Assembly (NCBI RefSeq): GCF_008831285.2
Contig: NC_045140.1
Location: 22,958,131 to 23,022,130, forward strand
From: Nymphaea colorata
Taxonomy: Eukaryota; Streptophyta; Magnoliopsida; Nymphaeales; Nymphaeaceae
Direction: 5' to 3'
Length of the DNA stretch: 64,000 nucleotides
Part shown: positions 54,350 to 55,663 of the stretch, in pieces
Numbering within the stretch: position 1 is the first letter of the stretch
Layout of the letters: each line of letters starts with the position of its first letter
The notes under the pieces: generated by a model
The model's database searches: none
The model's input: only the letters and a program-made list of their open reading frames with translations
What the model was told of the DNA's origin: nothing
Position numbers and translations under genes: made by a program

Positions 54350-54830
54350 CCGTGACTTACTTATGCACCAGAATGGACAAGAACATCGAGCCAACGCCTT
54401 CACCAAGCCGACGCTACGAAGTACAAAAGGGAGAACGGCTTCCCAGCTGGATAGACTAGAGGGCCCTCGATGCATTTGTGCTAATAAAGGACCAAAGGCA
54501 ATGTGGTAAATCTCTCTCTTTTCCTTTATTCTTGTTCTTTCATATTTTGTGATGAACGAGCTATAATAATGGATGGTACAATGGTTGAAATAGAATTTGA
54601 AGTTCTTTGCTCTTGGTGTTTAGCACTTTTAGGGCATTCTCAGCAATTGCAGCAGTCGAAAGCATAAACAAGATCGTGACAATTAAACTTATCTCATTTT
54701 AAGAGCAAGAACAGGTAGATTGCAATACCACCTACAACCAGAACTGTAATGGCGGCTGCAAGGATTATGCCCTCCCATTCATTATCGACAATGGAGGTAT
54801 AAACACTGAACAAGATTACCCCTACACGGC
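54350..54830 (+). pseudogene. Papain-like protease, plus-strand half of a tail-to-tail pair
   Basis: 54353-54515 is the end of exon 1 (PSPSRRYEVQKGERLPSW, then a stop; KDQRQCG with a normal gtaaat donor). 54630-54830 is exon 2 with disabled reading frame ([31 protein letters not shown]). The catalytic cysteine motif is damaged. It ends within exon 2 at about 54830, directly abutting the minus-strand copy. Confidence 0.8.
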
Positions 54831-54833
54831 TGT

Positions 54834-55663
54834 TCATTCAGAAATTTTTACATTTGTAATGTTACAGACGTCATCAATAGTCGTGTAACGGTAATTTTGT
54901 TCAGTGTCTATACCTCCATTATCAATAATGAATTGGAATGCATAATCCTTGTAACCACCATTGCAGCCCTGGATGTAGGTGGTGTCATGATCTACCAATT
55001 TTTGCTCCAACAACGAGATAAGTTCACCAGTTACGATCTTGTTTATGCTTTCAACTGTGCAAGTGCTTTTCTTAAAAGTGCCAAACACCAATAGCAATGA
55101 AGATCCAATTCTATTTCAACCATTGTACCAAACATTATTGCAGCTCGTTCATCAGAAAGTACGAAAAAATAAGAATGAAGGAAGAAGCAGAGATTTATCA
55201 CATTGCCTTTGGTCCTTCACTGGCGCAACTGCACCGAGAGCTCTCCAATCTATCTAGCTAGGAAGTTGTTCTCCCTCCTGAACTTCGTAGCGTCAACTTG
55301 GTGAGGCACCAGCTCTCTGTTCTCGTCCATTCTAGTGTGTGCGTAAGTCGAGCGATACTCTTCGTTAGTGAGATCAGAGAACTGGTTGAGCCCCAACTTG
55401 TAGGAGTGGCTTCCAGCATTATGCTGGTCGATGTAGAGCAGGTTGTCTTTGAATATTCCAAATTTCTTCTCCCTCTCCCTCAAACCATTGTAAGATTTGT
55501 TGTGCGCTACTATCCACTTCTTGAATAACTTTTGCACCTCTTGGTCACTTCGACCACCGAAGTTCTACTCGTCGTGACTATTTATTGGCACGTCTAGAGC
55601 AGCGATGCCTACCACAACAAAAAGCAATCCTACCAGCAGCAGAGCCATTGCACTAGACGCCAT
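54834..55663 (-). pseudogene. Papain-like protease, minus-strand half of a tail-to-tail pair
   Basis: From ATG 55663: a good signal peptide, then an in-frame TAG at codon 33 (55567-55565) where the sister copy has Gln. The prodomain continues open ([35 protein letters not shown]) until a one-base loss near 55300 shifts the frame to an early stop. The exon 1 donor is ataaat, not gt. In exon 2 (about 55100-54834) [10 protein letters not shown] is scrambled to [11 protein letters not shown], so the catalytic Cys is gone, while [20 protein letters not shown] is still readable. Confidence 0.85.

Follow-up and report, generated by a model that had tools for sequence, protein, structure and literature searches.

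Does a close inverted pair of decayed protease genes form a hairpin locus that yields small RNAs, or is it an inert by-product of gene duplication? The question arises from a palindrome in the 64,000 nucleotides of DNA analysed here (the window), a piece of plant chromosome judging by its genes, which correspond to C3:22958131-23022130 of the host assembly. The locus is best read, with a probability of about 0.8, as an evolutionary relic of gene duplication that would be capable of forming a hairpin and shows no sign of selection. The palindrome and its immediate surroundings consist of the following parts.

54182..54341, no strand assigned: copy of a dispersed GC-rich repeat bordering the left arm.
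54354..54837, plus strand: left arm (L), a pseudogene fragment with the end of exon 1, intron 1 and most of exon 2.
54838..54841, no strand assigned: filler of 4 nt at the junction of both copies, presumably left by end joining.
54842..54872, minus strand: unpaired apex, the end of exon 2 and the start of intron 2 of the right copy, without counterpart in the left arm.
54873..55349, minus strand: right arm (R), a protease pseudogene with exon 2, intron 1 and the end of exon 1.
55350..55663, minus strand: remaining exon 1 of the right copy, with its ATG at 55663 and an in-frame stop at codon 33.

The two arms face each other tail to tail across an apex of 35 nt, composed (alignments, by eye) of the filler at 54838-54841 and the 31 nt of the right copy that lack a partner. 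Self-alignment of the palindrome gives an identity of 78% over 1,007 gapped columns; the arms are 80.5% identical over 477 ungapped columns in one alignment of the copies and 80.3% in a wider one, and the ungapped pieces of the palindrome pair at 83%, 80% and 79%. The sequence-only reading, which described tail-to-tail protease pseudogenes with arms of about 480 bases and roughly 80 percent likeness, is borne out on all of these points. Among the pairs listed by a search of the whole window for ungapped inverted arms of at least 80 nt within 3 kb, there are only two, both of them pieces of this palindrome. RNA of the plus strand is predicted to fold at -594 kcal/mol against a shuffle mean of -238 kcal/mol (z -42.0), RNA of the minus strand at -623 against -257 kcal/mol (z -41.7), and in both cases 0 of 20 shuffles are as good. 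A hairpin of about 1 kb, as had been expected of a transcript from this locus, would be foldable from either strand's RNA. The locus shares with plant hairpin siRNA (hpRNA) loci the long foldable inverted repeat with a short spacer.

Both arms are disabled, in agreement with their earlier description as pseudogenes. The left arm carries an in-frame stop in exon 1, the right arm a one-base deletion in exon 1 and an intron 1 donor AT, where the left arm and most relatives have GT; the codon for the catalytic cysteine is missing from both. Given these stops, the deletion, the altered donor and the lost catalytic codon, the arms qualify as adjacent inverted paralogous pseudogenes: both copies belong to one family, both are disabled, and they lie on opposite strands within 2 kb. 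The I29 propeptide domain is still detectable (Pfam) in the remainder of the right copy's exon 1 (55350..55663). The stop at codon 33 (55565-55567) affects the same residue in the copy at the left edge of the window, in copies A and D2 and in the C7 copy (L014, L009, L011 and L015), and this residue is glutamine in C50, B and E; the common stop reflects either a shared dead lineage or recurrent decay.

Two further family members in the window serve as references.

38171..39974, minus strand: intact granulin-type papain-like protease gene (G38, RD21 / triticain-alpha type), 452 aa in the reading used.
50713..51466, plus strand: decayed relative outside any hairpin (C50), with exon 1 and part of exon 2, used as control.

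The intact gene had been postulated at these positions, and its product of 452 aa with I29, C1 and granulin domains (Pfam) upholds that claim. The best PDB match is Triticain alpha (8zlq, E 1.8e-131), and the gene belongs to the granulin-type papain-like proteases known as the RD21 type. Exon borders were picked by open frame and family sequence, which leaves the border of exons 3 and 4 uncertain by one residue; the first intron is apparently of the GC-AG type, with a GC donor at 39507-39508 where most dead copies have GT. C50 carries traces of exon 3 in a six-frame translation inspected by eye. The RD21 / triticain-alpha granulin-type C1A proteases, the source family, resemble the intact gene in their I29, C1 and granulin domains; the arms differ from them as dead fragments without the catalytic-cysteine codon.

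A DNA search of the whole genome (407.8 Mb) with the locus gives at least 25 matches, counting the locus itself, and at least 23 lie on contig C3. Fourteen sequences were aligned, with eight regions retrieved from the host genome. According to tblastn, every copy in the seven dead-copy regions (L009-L015) has at least one stop in its exon sequence, and the C9 gene (L016) looks intact exon by exon in alignments of its unspliced sequence. The left-edge copy is a broken fragment: its exon 1 contains a stop, and its match reaches only some 19 alignment columns into the region of the arms. It was left out of the identity ranking (19 shared columns), as was the C7 copy (16 shared columns).

Over its own span, the left arm is 82.8% identical to B, 82.5% to A and to D23064, 81.6% to E, 81.5% to D2 and 81.1% to F, and only then follow the right arm with 80.3%, C50 with 79.3% and D3 with 79.1%. 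The right arm is closest to D23064 (83.5%), followed by A and E (83.1%), B (83.0%), D3 (82.6%), C50 (82.4%), D2 (82.1%) and F (81.4%), with the left arm last (80.3%). Each arm is nearer to several other dead copies than to its partner, which suggests that two separate paralogues probably came to lie side by side.

The main competitor concerns origin only: the same inert relic may have arisen when one copy alone was duplicated in inverted orientation by fold-back. The apex is tight and includes 31 nt that only one arm possesses, as fold-back priming would predict, and the left arm is less like C50 and D3 than like the right arm. An AU test does not reject the arms as sisters (P 0.14 with 4 copies, 0.22 with 11 and 0.32 with 8), which makes an inverted duplication during the burst of copies possible. 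Against fold-back, the identity between the arms lies below that to six other copies for the left and eight for the right arm. When both arms are forced together, their joint branch has practically zero length (0.000002 substitutions per site), and in the four-copy comparison (240 columns) 0 of 15 quartet-informative sites unite the arms, 8 joining the left arm and 7 the right arm with C50. The arms are thus not mutual closest relatives by identity, and their joint branch is without length, yet the AU test tolerates the pairing; the tree is weak because the copies radiated almost at once. Sites unique to the pair of arms number 0, a count that says little since it is also 0 in 4 of the 9 other pairs with the left arm and 2 of the 9 with the right arm. 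The joining of two paralogues is probably the better-supported origin; fold-back duplication is unlikely, and its odds overlap those of the preferred reading, from which it differs in origin alone.

The outer end of the left arm (54354) lies 12 nt from the dispersed GC-rich repeat at 54182-54341, an element of about 100-160 bp ending CCCTAACGGGCAAAAA. When 53000-54340 is used for the search, 53 of the 57 matches listed fall on the repeat part, distributed over at least 15 contigs. A minus-strand gene starting near 54340 had been suspected from the GC-rich stretch 54206-54340 (0.63) and was dropped, the stretch being a copy of the dispersed repeat; the idea of the hairpin as leader or promoter of such a gene therefore falls as well. 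The ORF at 52487-52822, the one scanned within 51201-54360, has no Pfam match, and a gene in this stretch may still exist. Five copies of the GC-rich repeat occur about 389 bp apart near C3:5.28 Mb (L026), and 53038-53894 has an 88% identical copy at C6:2768564-2769450.

Elsewhere in the window, 7554-13823 and 13820-27416 form a large direct duplication in pieces with 87-96% identity. It holds two sets of ORFs that are, judged by their motifs, P450-like, and the second copy is interrupted between its pieces by a reverse transcriptase ORF (Pfam RVT_1). An uninterrupted PPR-repeat ORF of 702 codons occupies 29365-31470. A tRNA scan found nothing.

Upstream of the right copy, two stretches of family sequence are joined.

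55664..55771, minus strand: gene-proximal 5' flank of the right copy, common to the intact gene and family copies, with a TATA-like stretch near 55740.
55772..56617, minus strand: distal upstream family sequence, directly joined to the proximal flank, with 470-489 bp absent at the join.

Copies A, B, D2 and E have 470-489 bp between the proximal ~100 bp and the distal part. These segments share 82-91% identity with one another and also match a fragment of the window near 46 kb; at the end nearest the gene they show a modest match within 40072-40199, just upstream of the intact gene (70-77% identity, E 5e-8 to 3e-4). Their presence in the relatives, together with this partial match upstream of the intact gene, indicates that the stretch is most likely ancestral and was lost in the right copy. 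The view that the copy at 55663 still has its duplicated promoter consequently applies to the distal part and to the ~100 bp nearest the gene, including the TATA-like stretch, and not for the missing ~480 bp between them. The left-edge and C7 copies match the upstream region of the right copy without the ~480-bp gap, i.e. in the same configuration, and the absence in all three may mark a separate branch of the burst. The CpG ratio of 55664-56100 is 0.16 of expected, a value as low in 2.1% of 570 overlapping windows of similar GC content; it reaches 0.19 in the left-edge relative, 0.38 in C50 and 0.71 in the intact gene. A promoter and terminator scan of 54200-56100 gave 5 promoters against 3.9 in shuffled sequence and 1 terminator against 1.4, with models of bacterial type that are not meant for plants.

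The stem was examined for signs that its pairing is maintained. The arms agree at 79.5% of 151 columns in exon 1, at 83.1% of 124 in intron 1 and at 79.7% of 202 in exon 2, and such similar values in exon and intron are as unconstrained decay predicts. The longest perfect pairing measures 24 nt (permutation P 0.28), and the best 21-nt, 24-nt and 50-nt windows are equally ordinary (permutation P 0.52, 0.28 and 0.76). Columns alike in the left arm, the right arm and the intact gene are likewise unremarkable under permutation (P 0.38 for the longest run, 0.50 for 21-nt, 0.19 for 24-nt and 0.87 for 50-nt windows). A block of about 21 nt kept both in pairing and toward the target, as expected of a MIRNA gene, is therefore not seen in the arms by the two 21-nt values (P 0.52 and 0.50). 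The 67 transitions between the arms would yield 28 G-U and 39 A-C pairs in a plus-strand transcript (P 0.22), the numbers being swapped in a minus-strand transcript, and a preference for G-U pairs in the stem is not seen. The longest paired run including G-U reaches 37, on the minus strand. No sign of maintained pairing is seen in the arms, whose paired segments are no longer than expected by chance.

The substitutions themselves follow a graded pattern. In 12 dead copies pooled, C-to-T-type change relative to the family majority affects 64 of 428 CG, 56 of 492 CHG and 142 of 1,954 CHH sites, and the reverse type 100 of 3,691 A/T sites. Both arms together have 13/78 (CG), 14/90 (CHG), 30/368 (CHH) and 28/700 (reverse type); in the intact gene, which is far more diverged, the pattern is flatter (11/51, 10/61, 34/233 and 48/443, respectively). 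This decay fits methylated DNA across the whole dead family, with nothing specific to the hairpin. Decay by methylation peculiar to the arms had appeared in a three-sequence comparison (P 0.03, arms above the intact gene), a result discarded because the arms are not special once all 12 dead copies are aligned.

The 21-mers of the arms were compared with possible targets by a plant mismatch scheme with a cut-off score of 3 or less. Against the intact mRNA, 27 of 464 left-arm windows pass at 3 distinct sites and 20 of 457 right-arm windows at 4 sites, and shuffled left-arm sequence passes in 0 of 9,280 windows. The predicted sites lie at about coding positions 375-403, 435-445, 473-504, 580-594 and 620-633. 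Comparable or higher numbers come, however, from relatives that lie in no hairpin: C50 with 30/581 windows (4 sites) and P36 with 309/804 (8 sites); the whole right-hand remnant has 71/802 (6 sites). The suggestion that the intact gene is a target thus stands insofar as its matches exceed those of shuffled sequence, and loses its special character beside C50 and P36, since the complementarity of the arms to the intact gene does not go beyond theirs. The matches are real but, judged by these relatives, reflect kinship. The left-edge copy, likewise proposed as a target, is matched by 0 of 464 and 0 of 457 arm 21-mers. With introns included in genomic targets, the C9 gene is matched by 1/464 (left) and 0/457 (right), and six other dead copies by 46-176 windows per arm, among them D23064 with 176/464 and 155/457.

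A siRNA function of the locus is possible; beyond foldability, its sequence offers no support for one, and several specific props fail. The form that survives best, though quite improbable in our view and behind fold-back duplication in likelihood, is that a transcript of the locus folds and is diced, with the resulting siRNAs directed at the locus and its dead relatives (methylation in cis or across the family) and the intact gene left unregulated. The strong folds of both strands and the good matches of arm 21-mers to dead copies such as D23064 speak in its favour, as does C-to-T-type change ordered CG, CHG, CHH across the family; it has precedents in rice (PMC2708354) and in Arabidopsis IR71 and IR2039 (PMC5910406). 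The remaining TATA-like stretch near 55740 and the paired run of 37 on the minus strand also speak against the relic reading, and mismatched hairpins can be diced (PMC9263138). A stem with 20% mismatch is not by itself too poor for RNAi. Yet copies outside the hairpin show a similar decay signature, and the region upstream of the right copy, lacking about 480 bp and poor in CpG, fits an old silenced stretch.

Very little speaks for a proto-microRNA or trans-acting siRNA gene tuning the intact protease at 38171-39974: models of microRNA birth by inverted duplication and by pseudogene juxtaposition (PMC3237417) and the 3 and 4 predicted sites in the intact mRNA would suit it, but non-hairpin relatives equal or surpass these sites, no window is unusually conserved between the arms and the intact gene, and an Rfam scan of the window gives 0 matches at gathering score, which an undescribed family would escape. 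Hardly more credible is that siRNAs of the arms silence their own subfamily, so that methylation of related copies drove their C-to-T decay and death, with the intact gene spared by its divergence from the arms (about 73-74% identity); if true, a single accidental palindrome would explain the death of a burst of protease duplicates.

Under the relic reading, a subfamily of granulin-type cysteine proteases would have spread in a burst, mainly over one chromosome, every copy read here being dead. Repair of a break with the 4-nt filler would have brought two of its copies together tail to tail, and the left copy would have been cut at its outer end, where it now adjoins the dispersed repeat. Both copies would afterwards have decayed without constraint, and small RNAs, if made, would most likely be a by-product with matches mainly to other dead copies. 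Geometry, lesions, identity relationships and equal decay are shown directly, and the separate origin of the arms, the end joining and the lack of function are inferred from them. Inverted duplicate pairs are the supposed raw material of hairpin siRNA loci and microRNA genes. Should siRNAs against the relatives be shown, the locus would offer a natural test of whether an accidental palindrome silences duplicates and spares a diverged member.

Known systems resemble the locus to different degrees. Mismatched hairpin transgenes with 2 mismatches per 10 bases gave strong silencing in 28 of 41 lines, those with 1 in 4 in 10 of 33 (PMC9263138), so mismatch alone does not exclude function; their antisense side, unlike the arms here, matched the target perfectly. 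Soybean aquaporin siRNAs derive from a gene-like inverted repeat (PMC3534067). Judged by titles and the beginnings of abstracts, the publications found on papain-like cysteine proteases together with siRNA, pseudogenes and hairpins do not deal with a plant locus. Arabidopsis IR71 and IR2039 share with the present locus an inverted repeat able to yield long dsRNA, and differ in that small RNAs and DNA methylation are documented for them (PMC5910406). According to one proposal, microRNA genes can arise from nearby pseudogenes of one gene family that have become juxtaposed (PMC3237417); two close pseudogenes of the same family with a stem resembling family members are found here too, but without a conserved 21-nt block.

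The nearest counterparts are two inverted adjacent pseudogene pairs with hairpin small RNAs in rice, 83% and 96% identical; the parent gene of the first pair is reported to give no small RNAs (PMC2708354). One stem measures 185 bp and has a loop of 1,283 nt, the other about 155 bp, and the small RNAs of these pairs were sequenced. Common to the rice pairs and the present locus are paralogous pseudogenes on opposite strands within 2 kb and an imperfect stem, of 83% identity in one of the rice pairs (PMC2708354). Inverted pseudogene pairs that yield small RNAs, and the birth of microRNAs by such juxtaposition, are already published, and the present locus is one more example of clustered duplicates breaking into inverted pairs.
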